Shown one piece after another: positions 6,131 to 61,567 of a DNA stretch of 64,000 nucleotides (position 1 is the first letter of the stretch; each line of letters begins with the position of its first letter). Below the pieces are notes generated by a model. That model was not told the DNA's origin. It saw only the letters and a program-made list of their open reading frames with translations, and ran no database searches. This DNA comes from Thuidium tamariscinum (taxonomy: Eukaryota; Streptophyta; Bryopsida; Hypnales; Thuidiaceae), in the NCBI GenBank assembly GCA_947034885.2, contig OX344755.2, positions 10,046,501-10,110,500 of the forward strand, in the 5' to 3' direction. Position numbers and translations under genes: made by a program.

Positions 6131-7606
6131 TTATTCTATTGGAAGTGGTTGGTTGTTTTCAATTCTTCTTTTATGTAAAATAATTGATCTGGCGTACTGT
6201 ATAGCTATGGTATTGATTGCTTTGAAAATATGTGTTAGAGTAGTTTCTGTTAATTTAAGTTTGGTTTCAAGGATTTTCATTGAAGGAGTGTGTGTTGTTC
6301 CTCGAGCTCCTGCTGTAATGACAATAAGTGGATCTATTTTCCATCCTTGGGCCGAGATACTATTTATTAATGGTTGGTATTTTTGAATTTTATTATCTAT
6401 GGTGGTTTGCGCGAATCTATCATTAGTGTATGTAAATTCAATGAATTGTATTGTGAGATTATTATCTGGGATATTTGGTGGGTTACTTTGGTAGGAGAGT
6501 CCTTTTATCCAAAGGATATCTGGTTTAAATCTAGCGTTACAATGACATCTTTGTCTTTGACAAGAGCAAGGTAATAACCATGGGGGGACTGTATTTTCTT
6601 GTGGATTGTTATTGAATGTTCCTACATTCATGAGAGTATAATATCTACTATTTTTGGTAGATAGGATTAGTTTTTTCAGTTCCCATACTGCTTTGTTATG
6701 TCTTTTGACCCGAAGGGCATGAATATGATGTTTGCATTTTAAGAGTACATGGAGCCATGTGTCTACGTCGTGAGAGTTACAAATGGAGCATGTGATGGAT
6801 GGAAATCTCTCAATCCCAAAAAATAATTGTTTTCTAGCATTTCCCATGTATTGGCCAGTGCGGAATTTTAGTAGGCTTGTTTTTTGTGAGTCGGTTATTT
6901 CGGGGTTTGACCAAAATTCATTAGAGAGGTCCTTATGTATATCGGGGTTAAGGGTCCATTTACTAATGTTAGGGAATCGTTGTGCCATTACTTCAAGATT
7001 ATTATCATGATCATGTTTGATGATGTATGTTCTTAAACATCTAACCGGACCTTTGTCAGGACGATGGGCCTGACCTGGCCATTCATCTTTTTGGAAATAG
7101 AATGGAGTAGTATCTGCAAATTCATAGTTTTTTGAGGCAAATTTATATTCTTTTGTTGTGCCATTTTTTGCAAGTTTGTCTGCTTGTTCATTGCCTACAA
7201 TATTAGTGTGTCCTTTAATTTTGGAAATTGTTGTAGGTTGTGTACGGCTTTGGAGCATATCTACTATAGATTCTAATATAGTTTTGTCTGCATGGTTTCG
7301 ATGTAGGGTGGGGTGTTTTAGTTGTGTATTAATGACATATAGGCAATTGAGGCAGTTCGTGAATATGTAGGCAGGTTCATGTGGGTATTGGGTAGTAATT
7401 ATGCGTAAAGTTTTGTGTATGGCCATGAGCTCAGCTCTAAAAATGGTTTGTAAACCAGGTAGCCGTTTAGAAATTTGAATTTCTTCTTTGAGAGAGTTGT
7501 ATATGTCATATCCTGCTTTTTCGCGTATCCAATGTCCATTTGCATGTTGTTGTGGTGGTATAAATGAAACATCTGTGTAGTAGCTATATTGCGGTGGAAA
7601 TTATAA
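6131..7606 (-). pseudogene. LINE ORF2, 3' part: RNase H, CCHC zinc knuckle and restriction-like endonuclease
   Basis: The frame opens after a stop at about 7606 with YYTDVSF (first RNase H Asp), then RAELMAIH (catalytic Glu, about 7426), then FTNC where FTDS is expected (the catalytic Asp is AAC, Asn, at 7355-7357), and finally GHTNIVGNEQAD, the last RNase H motif. Counting from the Met at 7426, residues 213-231 form a C-x2-C-x9-H-x4-C knuckle. It is followed by RVKRHN at 239-244, the R-HN/HD motif that accompanies this knuckle in R2-type LINEs. KPDIL at 301-305 and FIEFTY at 328-333 form a PD...E pair typical of PD-(D/E)xK nucleases, with basic residues (K346, K349) after it. This C-terminal arrangement is known from RLE-type LINEs and is unusual together with an upstream APE domain. 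The RNase H is probably inactive; the C-terminal nuclease has no visible lesion. Confidence 0.8.
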
Positions 7607-8880
7607 TTGAGGGATAGATGTATACGTTGGTAACGGGGGCATATATAAATTTATTGAGTTACAATTGATTTTGTAAGTGAGTTTTTTCCAGTTTGAATTC
7701 TTTTTCACTATTACATTACTAGGTGTTGGTGCAACAATTTGTATGTGATATTATGGTATTTGCATATCTTGGAGGATCTTTGTGAGGGAGTCTAGTTGGT
7801 TGGATGGGCCAATATTGTGGTTTTGGTGATGTATGTATAGAATATGTATTGCAAGAGGTTCAGTGTGTTTTTGTTTGTTTAGTTCAATTGGAATTGTTGG
7901 GTTTTCGTATGTAATAGTGTCTGCCGCAAAATGTGCAATAACGTGTGTATCTTCAAATGGTCCAATATATGGAGAGAAGTTATGGTACCAATTTATATCC
8001 GGTATGACTAATATAGTTATGGTGTTTAGATCATGTTTGGCTGCTAGTCTTGCCTAATGTAGTGCTTGTTGGGTTGTTTCTTCATTTTGGGGATGTGCAA
8101 AACCTCTGCCTTTCCATTTGTATTGAAATGCTTTGCCAAGTGATCCAAATACTTTATCTCTTTCAAAGAAAGAGTAAAATTGTGTGATTAGTGTGGAGCA
8201 GGTGATTGGTGATGAGAAATATGAATGAGAAATGTCAAATGTTTTTGTTAAGGAGTCTAAGATATTTTTTGGAAGGGAGTTTGCAATGTTCTTAGTGTGT
8301 TTTTATTAGATTTCTTATATTTGTAACGTTGATATAGCCACGTGATCTCGGTTTCAAATGATTGTGTAGGTGGTGTCAAGCCATGTGTATTATGAATAGC
8401 ATCTTGGTATTGTTTCCATAGCCATTTTAATCTAGTGGTTGGAATAGTTATGAGGTAGTTACCGGTGTCAAGGTATATGTGTATTAGTTCATTTTGTGTT
8501 ATTATGGTAGGTGTGTTTGTTATTATGTCTTTTTCTGGATTGCATTCATTAGTTGAGATTTGCATAAGTGGAATTATTGTTGGAGGTGGGATAAATCTAG
8601 TATCTCTAGATTGTTCATGGTTAAAGTTGATCATGATGAGGTTTTTGTAGTATTTGTGTTGTTGTTTTGTATAATATTGTGTTAGTAGATTGATGTTGTG
8701 TGCAATTACCATTGGTTGGTTAAACGGGAAAAGATTTCTTTGTGGTAGCCATTTATTATAAGTGGTGTCATCTTCAAGTGTCCATTGGCATAGGTATATA
8801 TTAACTTTTTTAGGAATTTTGTATTTGTCTTTGATTTCTTTGATTTGGTGATCTGTTATACTGTTTATGGGGAAGGTAAG
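7606..8880 (-). pseudogene. LINE ORF2, unidentified region between reverse transcriptase and RNase H
   Basis: Reading frames are open on the minus strand through this region once frameshifts near 8880 and 8272 are allowed for, with in-frame stops at 8054-8056 (TAG), 7751-7753 (TAA) and about 7606. The better part reads KWKGRGFAHPQNEE followed by a helical stretch (ARLAAKH), a hydrophobic strand (TITILVIPD), and a second strand (HVIAHFAADTITY). The glycine-rich turn, then xxPx, then helix and strand pattern recalls a degenerate methyltransferase-like fold in which NPPF would have become AHPQ. That is speculation; I recognise no family with certainty. About 400 residues here are not accounted for by standard LINE domains. 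Confidence 0.4.
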
Positions 8881-11100
8881 TGGATTGTTTTGAATATGTA
8901 GAGGTGGATTTTGTTGTTGTGGTATTTGTACTGGTGGTGGATGTGGAGGGTTATATGGAGTCCTGGGATTAAATCTTGGTTATCTGAAATGTATTGTGCT
9001 CTTAGAGTTCTTGGTAGTGGGTGTCTTGGACAAGGTTGTAAACATTCAGGTGTACAGTGTGGATAACAGAAAATTTGTTCAGCTATATTTAAAGCAACTT
9101 TTTCAATTTTGGTTGGAGTTTTGTAGTATATTTTGAAGTCTTCGGGTGACATTAAATTTGTACCATTTAGAAGTGTAATGTGTTTAATTTTATGTATGTT
9201 ATGTAGAAGAAGTTTATGTAGCATTTTAAAGGAAAGTTTGGGATTTATATGTGGTAGAGTAAGAGTGGTTTGTGACATCCATTCTTTTTCAAGCTCGGTT
9301 GGATGTAGTTGAAAGTTTTCTATAACACTCATGAGGTGGATGTTTGCTTCATGTTTTAGCATAAAGAGGGTCCTTGTTGTAGGTGATCTGACACAGTCTT
9401 GTTGTTTGATTCTTGGAATGTTTTCTGCCCCTCCATACTTGGCCAAGATATGGTGGACGAGTCCTCTATATATTATTCCTAGTCTTCCTGAATCATTTAG
9501 AGCATTTCTAAGTTGTTCACTAATGCAACGTAAGTATGCATTTTTAAGAGAGAAGGCTTCAAGTCCAAAAAATTCATGTGGAAGTTGTGCTATTACGTTG
9601 GTAGTGCATTTTGGTAATCCACATATAGTTTTCTGAATTCCAATGATTTTTTTATCAAGTTTTTTAATTGTTGGTAGAGAATATGGCACTGCATAGAAAC
9701 TATAGGCTATGCCTACTCTAATTACAGTGTCAACCATATTGATTTTTTGATTTATTGTAGCTGGGCACTTAATAAGTTGTGCACATTGATCTATTACCTT
9801 TTCAGTGGTGATATGAGTTTGTAGTTTCCATTTTAGAGAAGGCACTAGTTGTATTCCTAAATATGGGTAGGGTTCGTGTTGGTGTAAAACTGGTATTTGT
9901 TGGTTTCTGTAGTTAATGTTCATGGTGAGTATTTGGGTTTTAAAGATGTCCGGTTTTGTTTTTGATTTATTTGGGCAGCCAGTGATTGCACATTTTGGTA
10001 CTCCTAGATCCATTCTTGCCCATTCACAATATTTATCTAGTTTGTTTAGTTGAGATTGGAGTGATTGGGGATTATTTGATGTAGCTGCTAAGTCGTTTGC
10101 ATATGCTGAGGAATTTATAGTTATTTGGGATGTACCAAAGTTATAGCCATTATTACCTTTTTGGAGCCATCTGAGTAGCGGTTCTAGAAAAATGAGGAAG
10201 AGATATGGACTGAGTGTGTCACCTTGGATGGTTCCTCTTTGTATTTGTATTGGTTTAGTTTTACCAAAATGTTCTCTTGTAAAAATTGTAGTGGAGTTTG
10301 AGTAAATATTTCCTATTAATGCTACTGCGTCTTTTGGGTATCCAAAGTCTAACATTATAGCCAAGAGCCTTGCGTGGTCTATGGAACCAAAGGCATTTTT
10401 GAAGTCTATATATAATATGTAGATGTCTTGATTAGTGAAGCGTGCATCTTCTAGAGCTACTATAAGAAGTTGTAATTGTCGTGATGTGCTACGTTCTGGT
10501 CTAAATCCTTCTTGGCTGTCATGAAGGATTTGGTATTTTTCGCCATAGTTTGAGAGTGTTAAAGTGAGAGTACTAGTGAAAAATTTGTAGATGGTGTTTG
10601 CAAGTGCAATTGGTCTATAATTTGATAATTGCGAAGAATCTCCTTTTTTATAAAGTAGTATAGTCAGACTAGTTTTCCAAGATGATGGGATTTGTTTGTA
10701 TTTGTAACAATGTTTGAAGAATAGAAAAAGGAGGTTTTGGAAACATTGAGGCATATTTTTAAGGATTATGTTTGGAATTAAATCTGGGCCAGGGGTTTTA
10801 TTATTGGATAAGTGTTTTAAACATATGTCGTATGTTTCTTTGGTGAAGTAAGTGTGTAAGGGGGTATCCGGGGTTCCACGTTTGTCTATGACAAAACCAT
10901 CTAGGTCATGCCATGGATATTGTCTCACTACGCATGTACAATGTGGTGGGTGTTCTGGTAGATAATAGCATGTTGGAACTGTAGGGCTATTATTAATTGA
11001 TTGTTGAGTGTGTATTTCATTGGCAATGTCTACTGGGTTGGTTAATAAGTTGTTTTGTCTATCCAAAATGCAATCTAGTGAGGGGGTATTTTGATTTTTG
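8865..11100 (-). pseudogene. LINE ORF2, reverse transcriptase domain with YAND active site
   Basis: An uninterrupted frame of more than 730 codons carries the RT blocks in order: TPGPDLIPNIILK, SNYRPIALANTIYK, SQEGFRPERSTSRQL, YIDFKNAFGSIDH (first catalytic Asp present), RGTIQGDTLSPYLF, and then SAYANDLAATS at 10080-10106. The last block is the YxDD active site, but the first Asp is AAC (Asn) at 10095-10097, so catalysis should be lost. WARMDLGVPKCAITG and PYLGIQL complete the palm/thumb blocks. The frame joins the upstream endonuclease frame by a small shift in an AAATAAATAAAT tract near 11100, so RT and endonuclease were one ORF. The apparent start at 11066 is not an ATG and is not a real start. 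Confidence 0.9.
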
Positions 11101-11113
11101 AATATTTATTTAT

Positions 11114-13432
11114 TTATTTGGGGCTTTTTTCATATAGCTGTCTACATTTTGAGATTGCCTTTTTGATGCATTTTTGCGTATATTGTGTAGTTATTTTACG
11201 AGCTTGTATGTTTGCAGTTTTGGCTAGGTTTGTTATGGTGTTAATCCATTCTTGTTGGTTTATACCATTTGATTCAGGTGGTGGAATGTGGGCATTGTTG
11301 TGGTTACATATTTCTTCTATTATTGGATGGGTTGTCCAATTTGTTGTGTGTTTGGATATGTAAATTGCCTTCCTAATAAGGTGGTAAGTAGAGAGGTGAG
11401 CTTTCCATTTTTTTTGTATTTTTTTTGGTAAAAAACCACCTTGTTGAGCTGTACGATTTGTTAGGTGGGGTAATGGTGGTGCACTACAGTTTTCAAGTAT
11501 TTTATTGGATATACTTTGTATGAGGTGGTCTAAGGTATTACATGCTTCATGCCATTGGTGGTTTGTTATATTTTCATTTATAAGAGTAGTGGTTAGTTCA
11601 GCTATTTGAATTGCGTGTTCCTCAAAAAAATTTGTTTTAAATCTTTCTATAATTTCTTGGGGAATAGGGTTTAATATACGTGGTAGTTTATTTATTATTG
11701 GTGTTTTAGGTCTTGCTAGTAATGTATTTGGTGGTATATTTAATGTTACTAGTGAGTGGTCTGAATTGAGGTTGTGGTTATGATTTGTGGTTGCTGTGTA
11801 TAAAGCTGAATTAGGTGTATTTATATAGTAACCATCTATTAGACTAGTTTGAGTATAGTTGTGACCACCTTGTCTAGAAAAAGGGCTGTCAGTAGGTATA
11901 TATGTGAGTTGCTGGCTGTCTGTAAATCTATGCCATTCTATGTCTTTTGTTTGTGGCAAGGTTATATTAAATTCATTTTGTCTACCAATGAGGGCAATGT
12001 CTCTATTGAAGTCTCCACATAGAATATAAGTGTGTTGTGAATGTAGGGAAATTTGTTGCCTTATACATTGTTGAATTTTGGGTATCAGTTGTAAATCATC
12101 TGTGTGTGATGGCATGTGCATGTGGAGTAGTAGCCATGGTTGTAAGGGGTGATTGTTGATTTTTATAATTTGTAAATAGGGTGAGAATTTAGCTGGGGTC
12201 GGAATTTTGGTAATGTTTCCTGGGTATGCATATTTTTTATTTATTAATGTAAGGAGTCCACCATGTCCTGGTGTATAAGGTCGTCTTTGTTGTATACATC
12301 TAGTTAATGCATGCGTATTATTGAATATTAATTTATATTGTGGAAATAAGTTTTTGATATATTTTGTGGATTTTGTTGCAGTTATTTTGGTTTCTTGTAT
12401 TGTTATTATTGCAGGGGTAGTTGGTGTGTGTGATGTTAGTTGTTGGAGGCTTGGTAAGGCTGTGTTGATCGATGCGGCGTTCCATGTGGTCATGTATGTA
12501 TTGGAGTTAGTAGTTTGTGTGTTTGTAGTGTCTGTGTTTGGTAAATTGGATAGAGGGGTAGGGTGGGAGTATTCTATTAAGGTGTCTTTGCATTTTAATG
12601 CTTCTAGAAGTAGTTTCTCAGGTAGATATGGAAATTTGTTAAGCATAAGTTGTAAGGTTGGTGGTGTAGGTGTTTGTTTAATAAAATTATATAATTCTTT
12701 GTGAATGGAATTAGAAGGTTCAATGATGTCTTGGTGTAGATTTTTAAATTGAATGTATGGGTGTGGTGTTGTGATATGCCTTTCTGGTGGGTTTTGTAAG
12801 AGGGCCATTTTTTCTAGTAATAGTGTGGTCCAGTCTGGGATTGGTATTTGTCTTAATAGATGGTTACATGTCTCTAATTGTGGGCTAATTGTGGTAATAA
12901 GTGCAAATAAAAGTCTTGGTGGTGGGTGATGTTGGTTTTGATGAATGTATTGTGATATGTAGGGGTAATTTATGGTAGTGTCGTTGTGGTGTGGGTGTGT
13001 GATGTTAATTATATGTGAAAATTGTTTTGCTAAATGTTGGTATTCGGGTTGTAGTTTTATTGTGCATGTTATAAAGTACATTTTATATCTATTTTTATGT
13101 GGAAGTGGATGGGTGGTAAATATATCGGGCATGGATCCCGGGTTGGTTTCTATATCTCCACATAAAAGAATTGTAATGTACAGAGGAAATTTTTGGTGTT
13201 TTGAGATAAGAGATTTAGTTTTCCATTGTTCTTAAATATGTTGGCAGATTTTACTAAATATTTGAATATGGTTGCTAACAAATACAATGTGTTTATGTGT
13301 ATATAAGTGTGATTTATCAGTATTTAATTGTTGTGTAAGAGATCGAATGTCAACAAAAAAATGGGAATTTGATGGGGGCATGAAGAGAAGAAAAGTATAT
13401 ACATAATATTGCCACCAAGTGGCAGTGTACAA
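11114..13432 (-). pseudogene. LINE ORF2, N-terminus with 2A-like motif and APE-type endonuclease
   Basis: From an ATG at 13432 the frame runs through a single TAA (13232-13234). It then reads ILLCGDIETNPGS at 13133-13171, a 2A-like motif whose final Pro is Ser, directly before an ATG at 13132. Counting from that Met, about 210 low-complexity Thr/Pro/Asn/His-rich residues precede an endonuclease/exonuclease/phosphatase domain. Its motifs are TWNAASIN (N218), TIQETK (E247), CGDFNRD (373-378) and NSDHSLV (456-462), so the metal-binding and catalytic residues are all present. Residues 463-672 are a linker leading to the reverse transcriptase. The domain nicks target DNA to prime reverse transcription in related elements. 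Only the stop at 13232 interrupts it, so this part is the best preserved of the element. Confidence 0.85.
13133..13171 (-). other. 2A-like (ribosome-skipping) peptide motif at the start of LINE ORF2
   Basis: The minus-strand frame reads ILLCGDIETNPGS. The 2A consensus is D-x-E-x-N-P-G followed by P; here the last residue is Ser (TCC). 2A-like motifs preceded by a hydrophobic stretch occur at the N-terminus of several non-LTR retrotransposon ORFs. With Ser at the last position skipping would probably fail; CCC to TCC is a single transition. Confidence 0.6.
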
Positions 13433-13518: not shown

Positions 13519-15198
13519 CTAGTTTGGCGGTGAGGAGGGTTCGGGGGCTTTAATGGCTAAACGAGTCAAACCTTTAATCATTTGCATGCTCTGAGCTAGG
13601 ATGGATTCTAGGTTTGTCAAGTTGCCTCTGAGCTCCTGATCTACCTTGTCTGCATAACTTTGTGCCTCTGTTGTCAGTTCTTCTTTCATTTGACTCATAT
13701 CGAATTTAAATTCCATCCGCAACTTCAAATTTTCTTTGGAAACTACCTCTCCTATCAACGCTGATAGTTCTTCTTTCTGTAATGATTGTTTGGGGGTAGA
13801 GGATGATGCTGTGTTCTGCATTGCTTCAACTGTACCAGCTAGAGCAGTGTTGATGTCCAGGAAACCCCATTTCTGAAGGGTTTCATCATTGGGTTTGGCA
13901 GTGCCCTCTAGAGAGTTGGGATGGGGCTGAAATTCCACCCATTTGTGCTGAAGGCGTGTTGATTTCTTCACACGTTGCTTATAGACTGCGGCGTTGAGAC
14001 ATTCGATGTTGGCTACACCACTATGAGCATCTCCTTTATACCGTGGGAAGAAGATGGATTTGACATTTTTGACTCCAAAGTGATCGTGAAATCCTGGGTT
14101 ACTTCAGCAATGGATTTGGTGAGGTTGATGCCTTTGACAATGAGTACTAAGCAGTTTCTCTTGTTCACCTCCTCACGAGTCAGTTGATTCAAGTCTCGGT
14201 TGATTGGTTGTAGAAGTTCTCCCAATACTGCAATTCGTTGTTGCTTGATTTTTGCCAGTTGCTCCGATGATGTTGTTGTCAGCCAGCCATAAGGTTCAGT
14301 GGTAGGTTTTTGAACTTGTGTTAGTTCAAATTCAAAGCCCCTATAGAAACTCTCTTCGAGTGTCTGTTTGAAGAGGTGGTGGGGTTCCATGTTCCAGATG
14401 GTCTCACTATTAATCTTGATAGAGAGAAGGGTATTAGAGGTAATAGGATCAAATGATTTGGCAACTTTGGCTATTGTGAGTATGTCATCATCTAGAGGAA
14501 TGGCAAACACTCTAGTACCACGGAGTAGAGCTTTACCATCAATTTCTGGGTTTTGAAGGTGAATTCTAGCCATGCCTGACCAGACTTTGGAGTTTTTGGC
14601 TCCATGACATAGGATTGCTATGGGGTCAGCAATGCTATCACCTAACTATATGTTCATCTCTTGAAAACGCCCCAAGATCTTTACCATGGCTTGTTTTTGG
14701 GTCAATGGAGACAAAGGCTTTTTGAAATGTAAGAGAATGTGGTAATCAAGAGCGAGTTGGGTGTGCATGTTTACCTCAACATCAAAGGGAATTTTGAGTC
14801 AGGTTGAAGTATTGGCCTGCAATATTGTCAGGTCTTGATGTAGGCCACAGCTTTTGTTGCACGCGAGGAAATGACATACGAGCTTTTGTGAGGTCATCTG
14901 CTTCTTGTGGATTGTATCCCTAAGTAATGAGTTCTGCAACTGATGCTTTATTGATGAATGGCGGCATGCTGGCTTCGTAGGCAAGGGTTTCCATAGTAGG
15001 AAACCCGTACCAAAATTCGTACGGTACTGGTTCACTAAGGAGGGCCATAGTTGTGACGGTGCCTTTCGATTTCTTTTATGTGGATTCTTCAACTTCTAGT
15101 GTAGTGCGCTTTTGTGAATCAAACGCATCTTCCATCTCAATTTCATTTGAGTAAGCCATATGTCTCCGAACTTTGTTGCTTTGTGGAGGGTCTGACAT
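13519..15198 (-). pseudogene. LINE ORF1-like gene, broken by three stops and two frameshifts
   Basis: Starting from MSDPPQSNKV at 15198, the reading passes a TAA (15076-15078) and a TAG (14930-14932). It shifts frame near 14800 into a stretch beginning IPFDVEVNMHTQLALDY, passes a TAG (14645-14647) and continues through the segment 14573-14040. It then shifts frame again near 14045 into IFFPRYKGDAHSGVANIE and reaches the stop at 13519. The last 100 residues are rich in Lys, Glu and Gln with heptad-like spacing, so a coiled coil is likely. The position upstream of ORF2 and the coiled coil fit an ORF1 nucleic-acid chaperone, but I recognise no named domain. GC content is higher than in surrounding DNA. 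Confidence 0.6.
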
Positions 15199-18717: not shown

Positions 18718-18949
18718 AAAGCCCAACCCCTACAACGAAAGCACGAGCGGTGCATATACCGTCCACAACAAAACCCAAAGGAACACCCTCAACCACACTA
18801 AACCGACTCAGCCCTCCGAATAATAACCCAGACCTCACACCACAACCTCACTCAAAACATACACACACAATGCAAATCAAACACAAAAAATACCCGAAAA
18901 CTCCACCTACTCCACCAACACAATGACCCACGACAGCAACAAAACACAC

Positions 18950-19258
18950 TCAAGTCGGTTTCAACAAGAGCCCATGCACATCCATCCCCCCAAACCACTC
19001 GACCACAAAGCACAAGATAGGCACCACAAAACCCAACCCATGATGAACAACTAAACCTGCTTTATCAACACACGGATGGATGAATACATTATCATAGCTC
19101 CGTCCCGTCGGGAGAAGACCAAAGCGAATGGAATCCCCAACAATGGGACAGCCTCGCCGCTGTACGCCAGACACAATCTGAACTTTATCAACGCCTGCGG
19201 CCTTGTGGCCGTTTCCGGACGGGAAGTGGCGAACGAAGAGAGGCCAAGATCCTAACAC
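18950..19258 (-). other. 3' flank of EXO70 copy A (probable 3' UTR)
   Basis: A 102-codon ORF here is kept in arm B only because the arms are nearly identical. It shows a 3-bp indel and no recognisable domain, and lies 83 bp downstream of the EXO70 stop in the same orientation. I read it as 3' UTR or downstream flank, not as a gene. Confidence 0.5.
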
Positions 19259-19341
19259 GACCCAATAACTACAGCAATAAACATACCTAACGGAGAACCT
19301 CCCAAACGAAACGCCGGGAGACGGAAACTACTCTCCGAACC

Positions 19342-21309
19342 TCAGCTGCCGTGGCTGGAACCGTGCCCGGCACTGTGGTGAGAAGAACCGTGAGAACCGT
19401 GGCTCGAAACCCTCCGACGCAGATCCTTCGAGGAATGAGACAGCATGTAACCCTCGAAAAGGTTGTTCAGGTACTCCTCGATGTCGTCCGAAGTGTACTT
19501 GATGTACCGCTCGGGATGTCTCTGAGACTCCAGGTACTGACCGTAGCGACCCAGGAAAGAACGGTAAGCGGGAAGGATCTTGTCCGAGATCGAGATACGA
19601 AGCTCGTCACGAAGCTGCTCGTCGAATACCACCCAACTCATCTGAGCCTTGTGAACCTCGTCGAACGCGATGTTGAAGCTCTTGAAACGCTCCTTCAATA
19701 CCTGCTTGGAAACGCCGCTCGAAAAACTACCGCTCGTGTGGATGCCCTCGTCGCGCAAGCAAGCCAGCACCTTGCCCCAAGCGGCGCGCTGGTAGCTGCT
19801 CGCGTACTGACGCACCTGGCTTGTGTTCTTACGGACCCAGTCGTCGCCCACCAAAGCACGAACCTCCGTCGTCTTCACCTTCTGCACGATGTAATGGATG
19901 TTGTTCATCAGGAACAAGTAAGTCAGAGAAAGGTCCTTGTACAGCTTCGACTTCTCCTCCAAATTAGAAAGCAGAACCTTCGTGATCCAGATCGTCTGAA
20001 CCGCCAGAGGAGAAAGCTCCGCGCTGTTCCCGTCGCGATCGCGGTCGTCCGACAGACGCGAAGAGTACCGAGGAGAGTCGCGCAGGGAATCCTCACCCTC
20101 ACCCTCCGATTCCTTCTTCTTCTCGCCGAACAAAAGCTTCAGAGTGTCCGAATAATCGCACATGAACTTGATGTAATTCATCACGTAACGAGTCAGGGGA
20201 TGCACGCCGCCGCCGGGAACGGGAGTCTTCGAACCGTCGCGCTGGATCGCGCTCTCGAAGTCCGCGAAAGTGCCACGAGCGCACTCACCGAGACGCATCA
20301 AAATGCCAGACGCCTCCGCGCGCACCGCACTGCTCGCCTCCCCGCTGAATACCTCCTCCAGCTCCGGAAGAAGGTCGCGCAACGTCTCGTACATGTCCAA
20401 AATCTTGAACAGCTTCTCCGGAGAACGACGGCTGATCGCCACGGCCTCGCCGAAGCTCAGAAGCTGCATCATCGGACCCTTCGCCAGCTCCGCGAAGCAA
20501 CTCTCCGACACGGAACCCGAACCGTCCGCGAAAATGTCGTCGCACAGACGACGCTCGCTCGGAAAAAGAGCACGCAGGGACAATTTCATGTTCTGGTTCC
20601 ATTTCTTGATCGTCACCTCCTGGTCCTCCCAACGCATCCTCCCCACCTCCTCGATGCTCTGACGCTCCACGCCCAGACGCTTCAGCGTCTCCTCCAGCGC
20701 ATTCTTGCGGATGCTCGCGTAAACCTGCACGCACTCGCGCTTGTAACCCGCACGAAGCATCCGCTGCGCAATGTCGGCCAGGTCGGGCACGATCCCCGGA
20801 GGAATCAGGTCCAGAAGCGGCTTCAGCTCCACGGGACGCGCCACGGGAATCTCCTCCTCCGCACCATCCTCCTCGCCCGAGCTCCGAGAGTCCGCCACCT
20901 CATCCGCTCCCATGTCGTCCAAACGACGGCTGCTGAACGAACCCGCACGAGAACAGTTCTCCATCAACCAATCCGGATCCACCGTGTCGCTGAACGCAAG
21001 CAAAATGTGACGAAACTCTTCCTCCAGACGAGCCATCGCCAGCTGACGCAAATTCTGCGCGCGGCTCAACTCACGCGTATTGCCCTGACTCACCAACAAC
21101 GATTCCAACGCACTCTGAATCTCGTCCACCGCCTCCAGGTACGCCACGGCCTCGTCCTGCGGACAGTCCCAGATCATCGACTGACGCGCGTGGTCCGAAG
21201 ACGCAGAATCCCACTGCAAAACCACATCCTCCGCGGCGTTCAGACCGCGAACGGGTTTCAAATCCGCCGGACCACCGTCCGACTCGTTCTCCTTACCGCT
21301 GTCCGCCAT
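19342..21309 (-). CDS. EXO70: Exocyst complex subunit EXO70, copy A
   Basis: A complete intronless 655-residue ORF. EXO70 is a subunit of the exocyst, which tethers secretory vesicles to the plasma membrane. Plants carry many EXO70 paralogues, most without introns. The N-terminal part (residues 35-110) is helical (AVAYLEAVDEIQSALESLL). An acidic Ser/Glu linker covers about 135-152. LIPPGIVPDLADIAQRMLRAGYKRECVQVYASIRK at 168-203 is a conserved plant block, followed by LFPSERRLCDDIF near 248-260. The C-terminal Exo70 domain runs to about 630 (LAVQTIWITKVLLSNLEEK, YLFLMNNIHYIVQKVK, HPERYIKYTSDDIEEYLNNL). The block wording is closest to the EXO70 B-F/H group as I recall it; subfamily is uncertain. 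The last 20 residues are Ser/His/Gly only, which is unusual. The start has a good context (GAG ATG GCG). It differs from copy B by Asp instead of Glu near residue 107. Confidence 0.95.
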   Translation of the reverse strand: MADSGKENESDGGPADLKPVRGLNAAEDVVLQWDSASSDHARQSMIWDCPQDEAVAYLEAVDEIQSALESLLVSQGNTRELSRAQNLRQLAMARLEEEFRHILLAFSDTVDPDWLMENCSRAGSFSSRRLDDMGADEVADSRSSGEEDGAEEEIPVARPVELKPLLDLIPPGIVPDLADIAQRMLRAGYKRECVQVYASIRKNALEETLKRLGVERQSIEEVGRMRWEDQEVTIKKWNQNMKLSLRALFPSERRLCDDIFADGSGSVSESCFAELAKGPMMQLLSFGEAVAISRRSPEKLFKILDMYETLRDLLPELEEVFSGEASSAVRAEASGILMRLGECARGTFADFESAIQRDGSKTPVPGGGVHPLTRYVMNYIKFMCDYSDTLKLLFGEKKKESEGEGEDSLRDSPRYSSRLSDDRDRDGNSAELSPLAVQTIWITKVLLSNLEEKSKLYKDLSLTYLFLMNNIHYIVQKVKTTEVRALVGDDWVRKNTSQVRQYASSYQRAAWGKVLACLRDEGIHTSGSFSSGVSKQVLKERFKSFNIAFDEVHKAQMSWVVFDEQLRDELRISISDKILPAYRSFLGRYGQYLESQRHPERYIKYTSDDIEEYLNNLFEGYMLSHSSKDLRRRVSSHGSHGSSHHSAGHGSSHGS

Positions 21310-22166
21310 CTCAGATACCCTAGAATGCTCCCTCCCACCCTCGACTCTCCCAACCCTATCACGTCCGTCGCCTCCACCCTAAACCGAAAGAGACGCGCAC
21401 TCTCCGGGCGCAACAACCAAATCGACGCCCTCGAGTCCGACCTAGGGCCTCCCCGTCGCGACCATGCGTCCACCGCCCCAATGGCGAACTCGATCAAAAC
21501 CAAAACCAAATGGCAACGCCTCTCTCCCACCACGACACAGATTCCGACGATTCGCGCAATCCGCACGGGACGCTTCGCATTCCAGCGTCCACGGACGAAA
21601 GAATCCCCAACCCACGCCCTGATCTAACCTACCACGGCGTGCGGGACGCCACACATGACAGCCCTGACCGGCACATGAGACGCGAAGTCTACTCTAACAC
21701 CGTGGTGCAGCAGAAGTCCAGGGAGAGGGGTGTGCGAGGGGAGCAGGGCAGGTAAACGGGCACTCGGAGAGAGCAGCGCGAGCGGCATAGCATCATTCCA
21801 AGGCCGATGCCCCCGCTGCTGCTGCCCCGTGCGTCCGTGCCTGCGGGCACCCCGGACTTGAAACGAACCCGAGTGAGAGGGACGGAGCAATTGGCTTCAC
21901 AACGCCATCACCAGCCATTCTGCGGAGAGTCCACCGCGGCATTCGCGTGGCAGCAGCGTCGTCGTCGTCCCGCAAGAGTGCGATCCGCCATGGTCGTGAT
22001 GGATCCCGTCGCGTCGCAATTCCTTGAAGCTCCCGCGACGCACGGCGCTCAAACCCCAGTTCGTTGGGGGGGAGGTCCTGGTCTGTTATTACTCGCGTGA
22101 TCACGACTGTCGGTCTTCAAACCCTCCAGCCCTTCGAGCACTACAGTAGATTGAAGTTGGGTCTTC

Positions 22167-26504: not shown

Positions 26505-27677
26505 TTCTAATGATCTATTCTTGCCTAGTCAAATAGTATGTCTAAGGTGAATGTGGCTTATTAAATTGTGCTCAATTATCAATACTTTATTTTTATTACT
26601 TGAAACTATGAATTGTATATAACTCCAAAAAATTTCATTATGTTTCATGAAAAATTGTAATTGTTATCGTTTTTAATTAAAAAAAGAAAAGAAAAAGTTA
26701 AAATAGCAAAAGCATTCCAAATTATTTGAAATTTTCACAAAAGGTATAAGTAGCAATGGAAATGAGTGTGAAAATTTCTCAATTGGTTACTTAATTTTTT
26801 TGATCCCAAGCATTAACAACAAATGTCTTGAAATGAAATTAGGTTATTAAACCAAATTTATTTATTTATTTGATTGATGTACAAAATTTTGATATTTTTT
26901 GCTAGTGAAAAATTGTGATTTTTAAATTGAGGGTTGCTAATATGTGAGCTTAGAGGTGTTAGCCCATTAGCCTAAAAGACTATATATCTCTTATATAAGT
27001 ATCTATACTATGGTAACCTTCTATGCTAATAGTATATATATAAAACAAATACCTATATTATAAGTGTTTATCTTATACACACCTTCAGTGGTAGCATGTT
27101 TTATCCATTTACATATATGCCCAAGGCTCACATGCTTATATATTAGTATTGTTGGTTTTCTATTTATCATGTATATCAATTCTAATATATATTAGAATAA
27201 TCTAGAACTTTTACTATAAATGAAGGATAGAGTAAGAATTTCCATTTTTTAATTTAAACTTAAAATCCATTTTTTTAAATGAATGGAAAATAGAGCATAG
27301 TTTATTTGTTTTGGAACTTTAGCACGAGGAGCTTGTAATTGCCATAAATCTTTTAATTTTTAGATTTTTATAAATTCAAGATGAAGTAGAACAAGAGCTT
27401 GTTAAGTTTCATATTCATAGTCCAAATGCCAAAATTAGTTATATTTAAAGTTACAATGAGGGCACATCCAAGGCACATCCATTGGTTGGATGCATAGAAT
27501 TTTAGGGGTTAAAGCAAGCATGACATGTATTTCCATAGTACCTCAAGAGTGTAGCCAAATGAGCAAAAATAGCAAGCAATGTATTGGGGCAATAGAATTT
27601 TCTGATGCTATAGTGTAGTTTATGTTGAAATTTGAAGAAAGGTTGCAATTTGCCTAGAGTTATAAACATGCTTAGTA
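26505..27677. other. AT-rich stretch without recognisable gene
   Basis: No gene. TTTTAGGGGTTAAAG at 27502-27516 resembles the terminus of the TTAACCCCTAAA family and may be a solo end. Confidence 0.35.
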
Positions 27678-29077
27678 CAGTGGGGTACCAATCAAAATGT
27701 CGTTTTTGAATTCGCAATGAGAAAATTTTTAGTACTGCCAACTTTGAAAGCCTCCTAAGAGCTCAAAAATTGATATTTTACCACGAACTTTTTACCACAG
27801 CATTATCTTTAAGTAAATTATATGTGTGCCAAATTTCAAGTCCAAAAGACTCACCAAAAAAAAGTTATTCAAAATCTAACAACATGGGTAGTGGTGAGAA
27901 ACATTTCACTACTTTCAACTTTGACACCTTCCTAAGGATTGAGTTGTTTTTCTTTTGCCATGAAATTTTTGTCATGAAACAATCTCTATGTTTTTAATAT
28001 GCATAAAAAATTTCAAGATAAAACAAATTTTTAATGAAGATATATGAAATCTCCCAACAGGTGTTTTTTTTGAGAAAATTTTGACAATTTCCAGCTTTGA
28101 CACCCTCCTAAGGGTTGAAAATTTGGTTTCTTACCATGAATTTTTTTTTTGTGAAGTCATCTCTATGTTTGTAATATGTTCTCCAAATTTCGAGTTCAAT
28201 TGAATTACCAAAAAAAAGATATACAAAATCTCCCAACATCTGTAGTTGTGAGGAGGAATTTTTGAGCCCTTAGTATAGTATTATTTTGTGGAGCAAAGTT
28301 TGACATGAATGTAAAAACTCAACCTTACAATTACACATGTTGAGAGATTTTGAATATCTTTTTTTGGATAAGTGTTTTGAACTTGAAATTCAGAACATAT
28401 ATTATCAACATAAAGCTGATCTTATTCAAAAAAATTCATGTTCAATAGACAAATTTTCAGCCCTTGGGAGGGTGTCAAAGTCGGCAATAGTGAAACTTTT
28501 CTCACAACTACACATGTTGGGAGATTTTTGTATATCTTTCTTTTGGTAATTCAATTGAACTTTAAATTTAAAGAACATATTATCAACGTAAAGACGACTT
28601 CACACAAAAAAATTCATAGTAAGAAACCAATTTTTCAGCCCTTGGGAGGGTGTCAAAGCTGGAAATTGTGAAAATTTTCTCAAAAAGAACACCTGTTGGG
28701 AGATTTCAAATATCTTCTTAAAATTTTTTTGTTTTACCTTGAAAATTTTTATGCATATTAAAAACATAGAGATTGTTTCATGACAAAAATTTCATGGCAA
28801 AAGAAAAAAATCTCAATCCTTAGGAAGGTGTCAAAGTTGAAAGAAGTGAAATGTTTCTCACCACTATCCATGCTGTTAGATTTTAAATAACTTTTTTTCG
28901 GTGAGTCTTTTGGACTTGAAATTTGGCATACATCTAATTAACTTAAAGATGATGCTGTGGTAAAAGTTTCGTGGTAAAATACCAATTTTTGAGCTCTCGA
29001 GAAGCTTTCAAAGTTGGCAGTACTAAAAATTTTCTCACTGCGAATTCAAAAACGACATTTTGATTGGTACCCCACTG
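27678..29077. mobile_element. 1.4 kb foldback element with Tc1/mariner-like ends
   Basis: The element is one long inverted repeat: position x pairs with 56755 - x, giving two arms of about 700 bp that meet near 28377. Termini are CAGTGGGGTACCAATCAAAA and its inverse, flanked by TA on both sides (27676-27677, 29078-29079), as made by Tc1/mariner transposases. The arms contain a repeat of about 178 bp: a CTTGGGAGGGTGTCAAAG-like block recurs at about 28460, 28637, 28814 and 28990 in the right arm, with inverted counterparts in the left. There is no ORF. The arms differ by scattered substitutions, so they have diverged since formation. Confidence 0.75.
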
Positions 29078-29079
29078 TA

Positions 29080-31218
29080 CAATAGAATGGTATCACAATC
29101 AACAAGAGTGGGAGATGACTTACAAATTGCCCAAGTTCAAGTGCGAGAGTAGGCAAGGTCTACAATTTAAAGCCATAGATAAAGAAAGAAAGCTCAAGGG
29201 CATATTGTGGTTGTAGTAGGAGAACATTCAAACTCCAAATCCATAGGATAAGAATTTTTGCATTACAAAGAGAAGTAGATGACAAAAAGTGTCTTCAAAA
29301 TCAACAAAGTTTCAATTAGTAGCAATCAATAGAAAAAACGTATATGTTAGTAGCATATTTATGAACATTTCAATGAGAGATGGAGAAAAGGTTAGAGACC
29401 TATTATGTTATTGGAGAGTGAATATAATATAATAAAGTACAATGTCATTCAAATTTGTGTTGTGTACTAGCAAGTTCTTTCATTGAAAAAAAATAGAAGT
29501 TCACAAACTCATTTCCCAAGTATGGCCAAAGAGCTACACCAAATAAAAATTGCAAAACATATTTATCATTGTTTTGAACATTGTTGGTCGTTGGTGAAAG
29601 GATTTTTGTAGTCAACTAAAAGGAATGAGATGAAGTCCATCTTGCTAAGCAAGACCAAATTCCATTGCTTTAATTAAGAATCCCAAGATTACAATACTGA
29701 TATCATTTTAGAATTAGAAGAGGATGTTCCATGAATTTAAGTCTTTAGAAATCACTCACTCAACACTTAGATTGTAAAGCAAGTCATGTAGTCTTTGATA
29801 GAGAAGTAGGGATTGGGGTATGTCTAAATGAAGGCAATGGGAGAATTTATAGCAACTACAATGCAAAATAACAAAATTCTTGAAGAACATAATTTATTTT
29901 TTTAAATAGCAACCCAAGCTAGTTTATATATTATTACTCTTATGGCTTAAGAGTACTTGTGATTGAAATAAGAAGAAGAACTCATAAATCTCCAATTGTG
30001 ACTTGAAGCTAATAAACTTACTATTGCAAAATTGAAAGCAACAATTTTATCTATTGAGAGTGTTGAATTCAACAAAAAGAGAGGTAGGATTGAATGTTAG
30101 AATTAGGCAAATGAAAAGATTGACTCACCACCAATTACAAGAGCAACGACATAGTATAGGTTTACAAAACTTAGAAGGTCAAAAAGACAATAGTGTGAAG
30201 GATCAATTCTTTGTAACTAATTAGGAAAATTGGAGGAGTTGATCTAAATTGCAAATTTTGTCCTTACATTAAATTGTAGCCTACAATCATGGTAGAGTGA
30301 GAAGCTTTGTGGCATTCAACGTTAAATGATTTATACAAGGGAAGACAACACAAAAAACTCCCTAGTGGTAGAACAAAGTATGATTTTTTTTTCATAGTCT
30401 TCTTTAACAATTTTTAATTTTGATGGTCATTTCTTCTTAGATGTTGTTTTATGCAAAAAATTAAATTAAATTTTAAGAAAAATGTCTACATGTAGGGTCT
30501 TGATTGTCAATTAAGTTTTCATATTCATTTTTATGGTGGTCTAGTCACTACAATATAATTGCTTGATTATGAATTTGGACTATTTTTGTGCAATAAAGTG
30601 ATTGTATCCTTACTTGTGGGATGAGCCTATGCTATTATCATAGTTCTATGTAAAGCTCATTGCTTTCATGGATCAATGTTTGGCCTTCATTTTACATAAT
30701 TAGGGTTGTCTTCCCTTCATTGTCAATTTTGTTTCCCAAGAAATTAACATTGAGGCGAGGAGAAATTTGTTGTCTTCTTTCTTATTCTTCATTTTTTTGG
30801 TTGGATTCAACTTTTGATGTAGTCATAGTAAGGCTCACTAATCACTATAGATTGGCTAGCTTGGTTATGAGTTCAAGGTGTAAAAAGTTATAAACCTAAT
30901 ACTATGGTTTAATTGTAAATTTGTGTTTGTCATTTCTATTCTTTATTTTTTTTGTTGAATTTAATATTTGTTGTGGTAACAGTAGATCTTATAATTGATG
31001 GACTAGCTTTCTTGGGCAATCATAAATTTTGTTTTTCAAAATCCTAATGCTATGGCTTTGATAAGTTAATGGTGTATGATTTTGTTCTTAATTTTTTTGT
31101 TTCAATTGCAATCTTTAAATGGTCTTGTGATTGTGGATGTTATTTCTTGAAAAGCTATTGCTATGGTTTAGTGAAATTTGGATCTTTTTTAGTATTTCTT
31201 TCATGAATTCAATTCTTA
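29080..31218. other. AT-rich stretch without recognisable gene
   Basis: Only short ORFs with no domain. The texture between 29100 and 30350 is slightly richer in purines on the plus strand, as in decayed LTR retrotransposon interiors, but no protein motif could be read. Confidence 0.35.
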
Positions 31219-41784: not shown

Positions 41785-44700
41785 GGGTTTGAGCGCCGTG
41801 CGTCGCGGGAGCTTCAAGGAATTGCGACGCGACGGGATCCATCACGACCATGGCGGATCGCACTCTTGCGGGACGACGACGACGCTGCTGCCACGCGAAT
41901 GCCGCGGTGGACTCTCCGCAGAATGGCTGGTGATGGCGTTGTGAAGCCAATTGCTCCGTCCCTCTCACTCGGGTTCGTTTCAAGTCCGGGGTGCCCGCAG
42001 GCACGGACGCACGGGGCAGCAGCAGCGGGGGCATCGGCCTTGGAATGATGCTATGCCGCTCGCGCTGCTCTCTCCGAGTGCCCGTTTACCTGCCCTGCTC
42101 CCCTCGCACACCCCTCTCCCTGGACTTCTGCTGCACCACGGTGTTAGAGTAGACTTCGCGTCTCATGTGCCGGTCAGGGCTGTCATGTGTGGCGTCCCGC
42201 ACGCCGTGGTAGGTTAGATCAGGGCGTGGGTTGGGGATTCTTTCGTCCGTGGGCGCTGGAATGCGAAGCGTCTCGTGCGGATTGCGCGAATCGTCGGAAT
42301 CTGTGTCGTGGTGGGAGAGAGGCGTTGCCATTTGGTTTTGGTTTTGATCGAGTTCGCCATTGGGGTGGAGGACGCATGGTCGCGACGGGGAGGCCCTAGG
42401 TCGGACTCGAGGGCGTCGATTTGGTTGTTGCGCCCGGAGAGTGTGCGTCTCTTTCGGTTTAGGGTGGAGGCGACGCACGTGATAGGGTTGGGAGAGTCGA
42501 GGGTGGGAGGGAGCATTCTAGGGTATCTGAGATGGCGGACAGCGGTAAGGAGAACGAGTCGGACGGTGGTCCGGCGGATTTGAAACCCGTTCGCGGTCTG
42601 AACGCCGCGGAGGATGTGGTTTTGCAGTGGGATTCTGCGTCTTCGGACCACGCGCGTCAGTCGATGATCTGGGACTGTCCGCAGGACGAGGCCGTGGCGT
42701 ACCTGGAGGCGGTGGACGAGATTCAGAGTGCGTTGGAATCGTTGTTGGTGAGTCAGGGCAATACGCGTGAGTTGAGCCGCGCGCAGAATTTGCGTCAGCT
42801 GGCGATGGCTCGTCTGGAGGAGGAGTTTCGTCACATTTTGCTTGCGTTCAGCGAGACGGTGGATCCGGATTGGTTGATGGAGAACTGTTCTCGTGCGGGT
42901 TCGTTCAGCAGCCGTCGTTTGGACGACATGGGCGCGGATGAGGTGGCGGACTCTCGGAGCTCGGGCGAGGAGGATGGTGCGGAGGAGGAGATTCCCGTGG
43001 CGCGTCCCGTGGAGCTGAAGCCGCTTCTGGACCTGATTCCTCCGGGGATCGTGCCCGACCTGGCCGACATTGCGCAGCGGATGCTTCGTGCGGGTTACAA
43101 GCGCGAGTGCGTGCAGGTTTACGCGAGCATCCGCAAGAATGCGCTGGAGGAGACGCTGAAGCGTCTGGGCGTGGAGCGTCAGAGCATCGAGGAGGTGGGG
43201 AGGATGCGTTGGGAGGACCAGGAGGTGACGATCAAGAAATGGAACCAGAACATGAAATTGTCCCTGCGTGCTCTTTTTCCGAGCGAGCGTCGTCTGTGCG
43301 ACGACATTTTCGCGGACGGTTCGGGTTCCGTGTCGGAGAGTTGCTTCGCGGAGCTGGCGAAGGGTCCGATGATGCAGCTTCTGAGCTTCGGCGAGGCCGT
43401 GGCGATCAGCCGTCGTTCTCCGGAGAAGCTGTTCAAGATTTTGGACATGTACGAGACGTTGCGCGACCTTCTTCCGGAGCTGGAGGAGGTATTCAGCGGG
43501 GAGGCGAGCAGTGCGGTGCGCGCGGAGGCGTCTGGCATTTTGATGCGTCTCGGTGAGTGCGCTCGTGGCACTTTCGCGGACTTCGAGAGCGCGATCCAGC
43601 GCGACGGTTCGAAGACTCCCGTTCCCGGCGGCGGCGTGCATCCCCTGACTCGTTACGTGATGAATTACATCAAGTTCATGTGCGATTATTCGGACACTCT
43701 GAAGCTTTTGTTCGGCGAGAAGAAGAAGGAATCGGAGGGTGAGGGTGAGGATTCCCTGCGCGACTCTCCTCGGTACTCTTCGCGTCTGTCGGACGACCGC
43801 GATCGCGACGGGAACAGCGCGGAGCTTTCTCCTCTGGCGGTTCAGACGATCTGGATCACGAAGGTTCTGCTTTCTAATTTGGAGGAGAAGTCGAAGCTGT
43901 ACAAGGACCTTTCTCTGACTTACTTGTTCCTGATGAACAACATCCATTACATCGTGCAGAAGGTGAAGACGACGGAGGTTCGTGCTTTGGTGGGCGACGA
44001 CTGGGTCCGTAAGAACACAAGCCAGGTGCGTCAGTACGCGAGCAGCTACCAGCGCGCCGCTTGGGGCAAGGTGCTGGCTTGCTTGCGCGACGAGGGCATC
44101 CACACGAGCGGTAGTTTTTCGAGCGGCGTTTCCAAGCAGGTATTGAAGGAGCGTTTCAAGAGCTTCAACATCGCGTTCGACGAGGTTCACAAGGCTCAGA
44201 TGAGTTGGGTGGTATTCGACGAGCAGCTTCGTGACGAGCTTCGTATCTCGATCTCGGACAAGATCCTTCCCGCTTACCGTTCTTTCCTGGGTCGCTACGG
44301 TCAGTACCTGGAGTCTCAGAGACATCCCGAGCGGTACATCAAGTACACTTCGGACGACATCGAGGAGTACCTGAACAACCTTTTCGAGGGTTACATGCTG
44401 TCTCATTCCTCGAAGGATCTGCGTCGGAGGGTTTCGAGCCACGGTTCTCACGGTTCTTCTCACCACAGTGCCGGGCACGGTTCCAGCCACGGCAGCTGAG
44501 GTTCGGAGAGTAGTTTCCGTCTCCCGGCGTTTCGTTTGGGAGGTTCTCCGTTAGGTATGTTTATTGCTGTAGTTATTGGGTCGTGTTAGGATCTTGGCCT
44601 CTCTTCGTTCGCCACTTCCCGTCCGGAAACGGCCACAAGGCCGCAGGCGTTGATAAAGTTCAGATTGTGTCTGGCGTACAGCGGCGAGGCTGTCCCATTG

Positions 44701-45123
44701 TTGGGGATTCCATTCGCTTTGGTCTTCTCCCGACGGGACGGAGCTATGATAATGTATTCATCCATCCGTGTGTTGATAAAGCAGGTTTAGTTCATCATGG
44801 GTTGGGTTTTGTGGTGCCTATCTTGTGCTTTGTGGTCGAGTGGTTTGGGGGGATGGATGTGCATGGGCTCTTGTTGAAACCGACTTGAGTGTGTTTTGTT
44901 GCTGTCGTGGGTCATTGTGTTGGTGGAGGAGTAGGTGGAGTTTTCGGGTATTTTTTGTGTTTAAATTGCATTGTGTGTGTATGTTTTGAGTGAGGTTGTG
45001 GTGTGAGGTCTAGGTTATTATTCGGAGGGCTGAGTCGGTTTAGTGTGGTCGAGGGTGTTCCTTTGGGTTTTGTTGTGGACTGCATGTGCACCGCCCGTGC
45101 TGTCGTTGGAGGAGTTGGGCTTT
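41785..45123. repeat. Arm B of the 3.3 kb inverted duplication
   Basis: Reverse complement of 18718-22056. It contains the EXO70 gene, about 750 bp of 5' flank with several upstream ATGs, and about 620 bp of 3' flank. Arm B begins at GGGTTTGAGCGCC and ends at GTTGGGCTTT; beyond both points similarity to arm A vanishes. Confidence 0.95.
42532..44499 (+). CDS. EXO70: Exocyst complex subunit EXO70, copy B
   Basis: A complete intronless 655-residue ORF identical to copy A except for Glu in place of Asp near residue 107 (GAG versus GAC). Two other third-position differences are silent, so the CDSs are about 99.8% identical. Domain layout: N-terminal helical region, acidic linker with a run of Glu (about 145-152), conserved core from LLDLIPPGIVPDLADIAQ (about 164) and the C-terminal Exo70 domain ending near LFEGYML. 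It then has a KDLRRR basic patch and a Ser/His/Gly tail. In yeast and animals, C-terminal basic residues of Exo70 bind phosphoinositides. The gene is transcribed away from the spacer, as is copy A, so each copy has its own distal promoter sequence beyond the shared 750 bp. Confidence 0.95.
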   Translation: MADSGKENESDGGPADLKPVRGLNAAEDVVLQWDSASSDHARQSMIWDCPQDEAVAYLEAVDEIQSALESLLVSQGNTRELSRAQNLRQLAMARLEEEFRHILLAFSETVDPDWLMENCSRAGSFSSRRLDDMGADEVADSRSSGEEDGAEEEIPVARPVELKPLLDLIPPGIVPDLADIAQRMLRAGYKRECVQVYASIRKNALEETLKRLGVERQSIEEVGRMRWEDQEVTIKKWNQNMKLSLRALFPSERRLCDDIFADGSGSVSESCFAELAKGPMMQLLSFGEAVAISRRSPEKLFKILDMYETLRDLLPELEEVFSGEASSAVRAEASGILMRLGECARGTFADFESAIQRDGSKTPVPGGGVHPLTRYVMNYIKFMCDYSDTLKLLFGEKKKESEGEGEDSLRDSPRYSSRLSDDRDRDGNSAELSPLAVQTIWITKVLLSNLEEKSKLYKDLSLTYLFLMNNIHYIVQKVKTTEVRALVGDDWVRKNTSQVRQYASSYQRAAWGKVLACLRDEGIHTSGSFSSGVSKQVLKERFKSFNIAFDEVHKAQMSWVVFDEQLRDELRISISDKILPAYRSFLGRYGQYLESQRHPERYIKYTSDDIEEYLNNLFEGYMLSHSSKDLRRRVSSHGSHGSSHHSAGHGSSHGS

Positions 45124-49410: not shown

Positions 49411-49901
49411 CGTGATGCTCAAGCAATGGTGCTCCTTCAAGGGTGATGCTCGAGGGATGGTCATCTTGTTGTAAGTTGGGCGTGTTGAATTCAACACTCG
49501 AGAGGTTACGTTTGAGGGATGTTTTGAGGGTTTGAATGATGACCAATACTATTGTATGGTCAGACCTATTAAAGGCAGTCATGGTCATTAACGATGGCTA
49601 CAAAGACCTGTAAATCCATTAGCAAAGGTGGATTGTGCCGAATACATTGCCACTACTATAAAGTGTATCATTAATTTTTTGCAGATGGAATGAAGTTTCA
49701 TTAGACTCTTTGGTTTTTGCTTTCTTAAGCTTGTATTTAGTCTTGGCTTTTTGTTATTTGTGTCTGAAAATAGTTTTGAGCCTTGTTCGTGTATTTGAAG
49801 TTCAAGAAGAAAAAAATAAGAATCAGATTGTCCTTTCATTGATAGAAAATATACCCTTTTATTTACAAAGGGTACTGAAGCAAGGACTAATATAGCCTAT
49901 A
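49411..49901 (+). repeat. 470-bp segment shared with 56589-57056, left copy
   Basis: Direct-repeat partner of 56589-57056, with an estimated identity of about 93%. The plus strand of the right copy has a short open frame (QVRRVELNTQEVTFEGCFEG...FLWME). This left copy has an extra ~30 bp near 49430, and the frame is broken by a TAA (at the position of WW in the right copy). It may be a gene fragment captured by the Helentron or part of its 3' end. Confidence 0.6.
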
Positions 49902-49903
49902 AA

Positions 49904-56409: not shown

Positions 56410-56842
56410 GATTTTTTCAGAGTCTCAAGATGATGAGCCTCAAATCGAGCGTGAACTTGAGTATTCATTTTTACAGTTACCGGATCTACTTCTTCTATCG
56501 TTATCGCAAATGCATTTGCGAGAAGAAGCTGGACCTTCACAACCACTAAAGCAATTGCGTATGGAACAGTAATGGTACGGCAACCTTCAGCGTGATGCTC
56601 AAGCGATGGTCATCTTGTTGCAAGTTAGGCGTGTTGAACTCAACACTCAAGAAGTTACATTTGAGGGATGTTTTGAGGGTTTGAATGATGACCAATACTA
56701 TTGTATGGTCAGACCTATTAAAGGGAGTCGTGGTCATCAATGGTGGCTACAAAGACTTGTAAATCCATTAGCAAAGGTGGATCATGCCAAATACATTGCC
56801 ACTACTGTAAAACGTATCATTAAGTTTTTGTGGATGGAATGA
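56410..56842 (+). pseudogene. Unidentified coding fragment shared by both Helentron copies
   Basis: A plus-strand frame SESQDDEPQIERELEYSFLQ with a Leu-rich helix (PDLLLLSLSQMHL) runs to a TAA at about 56570. It then continues in the same frame as QVRRVELNTQEVTFEGCFEG, LNDDQYYCMVRPIKGSRGHQ and on to FLWME stop at 56842. The second part lies inside the 470-bp segment repeated at 49411-49901. It is antisense to the Helentron. No family recognised. Confidence 0.4.
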
Positions 56843-57056
56843 AGTTTCATTAGAAACTTTGGTTTTTACTTTCTTAAGCTTGTATTTAATCTTGGCTCTT
56901 TGTTATTTGTGTTTAAAAGTAGTTTTGAGCCTTATTCGTGTATTTGAAGTTCAAGAGGAAAAAAATAGGAATCAGATTGTCCTTTCATTGATAGAAAATA
57001 TACCCTTTTATTTACGAAAGGTATTAAAGCAAGGACTGATATAGCCTATAAGTTGC
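56589..57056 (+). repeat. 470-bp segment shared with 49411-49901, right copy
   Basis: Starts near CAGCGTGATGCTCAAGC and ends at GATATAGCCTATAA; similarity to the left copy stops exactly there. In both copies this segment is on the 3' side of minus-strand Helentron sequence. Confidence 0.7.
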
Positions 57057-59763: not shown

Positions 59764-59816
<53 letters not shown>

Positions 59817-61556: not shown

Positions 61557-61567
61557 AGTTCTTCCAC

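Follow-up and report, generated by a model that had tools for sequence, protein, structure and literature searches.

A dead LINE with two endonucleases and a PCIF1-like domain in moss DNA, probably of the Dualen/RandI type

Introduction

Dualen is described as encoding two endonucleases, one of the apurinic/apyrimidinic type (APE) and one restriction-like (RLE) (PMC4640811), and as occurring in relatives of Chlamydomonas (PMC8226300). RandI is listed for green algae in PMC3747384, where L1 and RTE are the clades given for flowering plants, and a table for land plants names L1 and RTE (PMC9033089). Elements of the R2 group are described with a single open reading frame (ORF) that holds a reverse transcriptase (RT) and an RLE (PMC3636483). 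Here we describe a long interspersed nuclear element (LINE) on the minus strand of a 64,000-nucleotide stretch of DNA deposited as Thuidium tamariscinum (contig OX344755.2, positions 10,046,501 to 10,110,500; hereafter the window), where it occupies positions 6131-13432. The element is very probably a dead copy of a Dualen/RandI-type retrotransposon, of the class without long terminal repeats, resident in a moss genome. It is like the Dualen/RandI elements described from Chlamydomonas in joining APE and RLE in one element, in its RNase H and in belonging to the green lineage, but its host is a moss, and it has a domain related to PCIF1/CAPAM, the cap-specific adenosine N6-methyltransferase, which is unmentioned in the descriptions compared (the founding paper of 2005 is not among them).

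Two endonucleases in a decayed element

The conceptual ORF2 starts at a 2A-like motif near 13.19 kb and ends at a stop at 6.13 kb. An APE-type (EEP) endonuclease domain (11780-12676) with the motifs TWN, QET, GDFN and SDH lies N-terminal to the RT (9204-10886; RVT_1 core 9849-10646, Pfam 5.7e-28). Downstream of the RT, the RNase H domain (7121-7522; Pfam 5.3e-12, and 1.4e-6 to RNase H1 in the PDB) is followed by a C-terminal region (6146-7072) with a C-x2-C-x9-H-x4-C zinc knuckle (6734-6790), RVKRHN and KPD...E. All these motifs lie where a previous reading of the letters alone (the sequence-only reading) had placed them. That reading had proposed one ORF with two different endonucleases; both nucleases and their order stand, while the ORF itself is not intact, being broken by three frame changes and three in-frame stops, with an additional stop upstream of the 2A-like motif. 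The single frame that follows the last frame change holds the RLE, the RNase H and the larger part of the PCIF1-like domain. In the RT the catalytic YADD has become YAND, whereas ADD or xDD is retained, by a simple pattern, in 112 of 120 relatives. Because of the frame changes, the stops and this substitution, the copy is dead.

The C-terminus matches the R2 RLE in a profile comparison (4.4e-12), the kind of match that the sequence-only reading had asked for, and a fold comparison shows that it shares the R2-type RLE fold. The profile E-values behind the domain coordinates and the counts of relatives come from profiles that include the window; we also built profiles from the relatives without it, and these score the window at 3.9e-30 for the APE-type endonuclease (EN), 1.6e-40 for the PCIF-like domain, 1.9e-28 for RNase H and 5.1e-49 for the RLE. 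None of 220 controls (200 shuffles and 20 copies of one reversed sequence) was matched by the relatives-only profiles. Since profiles free of the window match it and match none of the controls, a chance origin of the domain matches is excluded.

Two open frames ahead of ORF2 (13522-14645, minus strand) contain ORF1-like coding pieces that we infer to be part of the same LINE; no Pfam family scored above its cut-off in them, and by eye they have an RRM-like appearance. The 3′ flank is AT-rich with no clear array, and the end of the element is not fixed; the 3′ tails given for Dualen/RandI in PMC3747384 are of the (ATT)n or (CTATTT)n type. No convincing target-site duplication around the LINE was found among 20 of at least 60 direct-repeat families.

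Relatives of the element and placement of the reverse transcriptase

A protein search with the RT part gave 170 relatives (best 2.5e-106, about 40% identity in the top rows), and the best 120, all found through the RT, were analysed. They are between about 1300 and 4130 residues long, and the named sources are Haematococcus lacustris (40), which is in the same order as Chlamydomonas, Parachlorella kessleri and one transcriptome contig. EN, RT, PCIF-like domain, RNase H and RLE follow one another in this fixed order within one predicted protein in 80 of the 120 (28 of the 40 Haematococcus rows, for example P0106, and 52 of the other 80). The dual APE and RLE arrangement proposed from this one locus is therefore real, and it is common to the family. 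By iterated profiles, 107 of the 120 have the PCIF-like domain and 96 have the C-terminal nuclease; the former is present in all 105 relatives that reach 600 residues past the RT, the RLE in all 28 that reach 1450 residues past it, and the EN in 88 of the 89 with 600 residues ahead of it. The C-terminal nuclease rows inspected numbered 70, with Haematococcus thinned, and the two alignments, A1 (16) and A2 (14 relatives), were picked by hand out of diverse sets. The P. kessleri sequence (P0027) stops 62 residues past the RT, which places its C-terminal half outside the comparison. Searched with the C-terminal half, none of 3450 protein candidates matched at E <=0.001, and viral contigs searched with the RT and C-terminal pieces gave no relatives.

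The motif FPLYITILLCGDIETNPGS at 13133-13189 (minus strand), which we take to be of the ribosome-skipping 2A type, has its final Pro changed to Ser. A 2A-like motif of the form DxExNPGP, in most rows behind a hydrophobic stretch, lies upstream of the EN in 20 of the 120 relatives, several Haematococcus rows among them, and suggests that ORF2 is released through ribosome skipping. Neither this motif nor the PCIF1-like domain, the most unexpected domain of the element, was part of the sequence-only reading. Accessory Pfam accessions vary among the relatives (P0013, P0092, P0028, P0022, P0025, P0045, P0058, P0116 and Haematococcus rows): they are PF02902, PF02338, PF00628, PF00145 and PF02099, presumably Ulp1, OTU, PHD, C5 cytosine methyltransferase and Josephin, respectively, the last being precomputed for many Haematococcus rows. 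Such accessory domains are treated in PMC6338049.

In single-sequence comparisons the RT of the window is closer to R2 (5.2e-29) than to L1 (9.8e-16). For the tree, the 118 of 120 rows that exceed 380 residues (the window among the 118) were thinned below 75% identity, leaving 70 relatives that were combined with the window and three references (two R2, one L1). The window and the 70 relatives form one clade (support 100/99) apart from the references. Within it the window groups with P0001, P0002, P0007 and P0019 (98/78) and next with P0037, P0058 and P0116 (99/94), and the clade includes P0069 (H. lacustris) and P0027; the RTs of the Haematococcus and Parachlorella elements are 34-37% identical to that of the moss element. 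The window thus lies outside both R2 references and not within L1, for which the reference was one human L1 on a long branch; because of that branch the tree does not settle how the clade, R2 and L1 stand relative to one another.

The PCIF1-like domain

When the pieces of the broken frame were scanned separately against Pfam, an unexpected match to PCIF1_WW (3.2e-11) appeared between the RT and the RNase H, and it rose to 3e-14 (PF12237) once the neighbouring piece was rejoined. The domain (7895-8565, minus strand) has a degenerate catalytic slot, and its reading is interrupted once by a frame change and once by a stop. The single sequence matched human PCIF1 in the PDB at 0.0032, and a profile built from 14 relatives matched it at 4.6e-10. 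A match to the core methyltransferase fold of PCIF1 was obtained for the relative P0008, whose model aligns solely with PCIF1 residues 417-623 and leaves the N-terminal parts of PCIF1 unaligned; the window itself was matched by profile. PCIF1/CAPAM methyltransferases have an N-terminal WW domain. No separate WW family was among the Pfam matches of the window pieces, and according to PMC7641849 the family named PCIF1_WW is a methyltransferase of the CAPAM type and no WW domain.

The domain of this LINE group and PCIF1/CAPAM are alike in core fold and in the sequence of residues 417-623, but here the domain sits within the ORF2 of a LINE, and among such LINEs the catalytic NPPF is changed to NPEY or lost. 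Jumbo phages have PCIF1-like adenine methylases, and choanoflagellates have CAPAM-like domains fused to eTudor-DCD; these too lie outside cellular PCIF1, and they are not described as retroelement proteins in the accounts of PMC7824862 and PMC7641849. SymbioLINE-Dnmt and DIRS-Dam are likewise retroelements with nucleic-acid methyltransferases, but their enzymes are given as cytosine DNMTs (in a LINE ORF1 and in DIRS) or of a Dam-like DNA type (PMC5890265), whereas the domain of the moss element is related to an RNA-cap methyltransferase and lies inside the ORF that bears the RT.

Host and neighbouring features

The window contains an EXO70 gene (Pfam 3.9e-140) whose closest named match is Physcomitrium patens at 80%, five matches being higher at 82-93%, with 60-64% to liverworts and 60% to Sphagnum (best 120 of 1755). 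As its best named match is to a moss, the host is a moss, and by identity at this gene probably one of the Bryopsida; the earlier impression of land-plant DNA was sound. Two inverted copies (18718-22056 and 41785-45123), each 3.34 kb long with a 678-residue EXO70 frame, are 99.2% identical and about 20 kb apart (Pfam was run on one of them); they may have arisen by an inverted duplication of recent date, or else the assembly may have introduced them.

Other repeats in the window are a broken Helitron at 58325-61882 on the minus strand (Helitron_like_N 5.1e-18, PIF1 helicase 1.4e-24), an inverted repeat at 27675-29080 with arms of about 580 bases that are 92% identical, and a near-palindrome of 289 bases (50159-50447, 96%). 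The last is flanked by dispersed direct repeats (49434-50651 with 56584-57051 and 63545-64000, 91-95% identity) and is probably a non-autonomous element.

Discussion

The moss element has three features of Dualen/RandI: an APE-type endonuclease N-terminal to the RT, an RNase H in ORF2 and an RLE C-terminal to the RT. The layout of the R2 group, an RT and RLE in a single ORF with no APE, does not describe it, as an APE is present and the RT falls outside the two R2, although the CCHC knuckle, RHN and PD..E RLE fold are common to both. We know of no PCIF-like domain in R2, for which no search was made. An ordinary L1-type LINE of plants, in which the C-terminal Cys/His and PD..E motifs arose by chance, would agree with the L1 and RTE clades given for flowering plants (PMC3747384) and land plants (PMC9033089) and with the RNase H reported for plant L1 in PMC4640811. 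We consider this hardly credible, as the RT is nearer to R2 than to L1 and forms a clade of its own, and both profile and fold confirm the RLE, with no match in the controls; the fold of the RLE and the position of the RT in the tree refute L1 membership with a chance C-terminus. A copy broken into several frames could also be a mosaic, in which an APE LINE took up a piece of an R2-like element together with a pseudogene of PCIF1, and to this we give next to no weight, since the larger PCIF-like part lies in the same frame as the RNase H and the RLE, and the identical domain order recurs in single predicted proteins of two-thirds of the relatives, which refutes a nested insertion. Somewhat less far-fetched, but still improbable, is a chimeric or contaminated contig in which the LINE is algal. 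The named relatives among the best 120 are green algae, with no named moss relative among the matches listed; yet the LINE shares the 64-kb contig with the moss EXO70, has decayed in place, and has a GC content (35-37%) close to that of the window, which is mostly 24-34% apart from its GC-rich blocks.

Several points weigh against the reading that we prefer, a moss-resident Dualen/RandI element whose PCIF1-like domain serves its own RNA. The sequence-only reading had looked for an RT grouping with Dualen; the clade found holds green-algal elements outside R2 and L1, and membership is argued from architecture and the named relatives (Haematococcus, Parachlorella), no sequence labelled Dualen or RandI being in the comparison. 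Its EEP check succeeded with the relatives-only profile, while the Pfam matches (8e-5 and 4.5e-5) fall below curated cut-offs (23.7 versus 27.4 and 22.9 versus 24.5 bits). Single-sequence phmmer with the window parts found the EN in 5, the PCIF-like domain in 54 and the C-terminus in 28 of the 120 relatives, the rest being found by profile only, and the observations on the moss element concern one copy. The catalytic NPPF occurs exactly in none of 108 relative rows, and a simple cap methyltransferase is therefore disfavoured. Knockdown of PCIF1 in human cells is reported to leave L1 RNA levels unchanged (PMC8324889), so a LINE does not necessarily depend on methylation of the cap adenosine. 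What each nuclease would do and how the domain would act at capped RNA, both set out below, are proposed by analogy with known families and from homology.

Catalysis by the PCIF1-like domain is uncertain because its motif is altered. The slot reads NPEY in 19 of the 108 rows (15 of 65 non-redundant rows, the remainder highly varied; the count of motif changes covers 63 of the 65, two gapped rows being dropped), NVPA in 35, every one of them from Haematococcus, whose slot is NVPA or NIPA, and HP-Q in the window. We see an even chance that the domain is a pseudoenzyme retained as an RNA- or protein-binding module: this would fit the varied slot, the lack of NPPF and a model alignment confined to PCIF1 417-623, but deep branches have NPEY in common, among them the pair P0044/P0060, outermost in a midpoint-rooted tree, and the FASPLN and FGA motifs are partly retained in many relatives. 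NPEY in place of NPPF is possibly the ancestral form. More tentatively, a group of dual-endonuclease LINEs reaching from green algae to mosses may have captured the core of a cap adenosine methyltransferase, the NPEY form being active with a changed specificity and marking or checking the capped 5′ end of its own RNA; the PCIF1-type core would then have been lost piecemeal in many lineages.

Domain content and order, conservation in the relatives and the folds are established by the observations above; the mode of copying that follows is a proposal for the moss-resident Dualen/RandI-type element. Unbroken relatives encode one large protein with an APE-type endonuclease, RT, PCIF1/CAPAM-related domain, RNase H and R2-type RLE, behind a 2A-like leader in some. 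By analogy with the families to which these parts belong, the element would have copied itself through target-primed reverse transcription, one nuclease making the priming nick and the other, next to the zinc knuckle, aiding target binding or the second-strand cut, with the RNA template removed by RNase H. Judging from homology, the PCIF1-like domain most likely acts on the element's own RNA, at its capped 5′ end, where it may methylate the first adenosine in the possibly ancestral form with NPEY or, the slot being lost, retain RNA recognition only.

The moss host, the RT clade with green-algal elements and the shared architecture take a LINE type with two endonucleases beyond the green algae to a moss, the extension of the Dualen lineage that had been anticipated. 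The copy also bears on the replacement of RLE-type by APE-type LINEs, which is argued from Dualen in PMC4640811. Among the matches listed from the open-licence PMC literature, we found no LINE protein with a PCIF1-like or cap-methyltransferase domain. The large ORF2 of this group contains a domain that is conserved and is related to an enzyme of RNA-cap modification. Were it catalytic, the elements would alter the ends of their own RNAs and, to our knowledge, would be the first with a retroelement-encoded RNA-cap methyltransferase; if it is not, they would exemplify an enzyme of RNA that has become a binding module of a retroelement.

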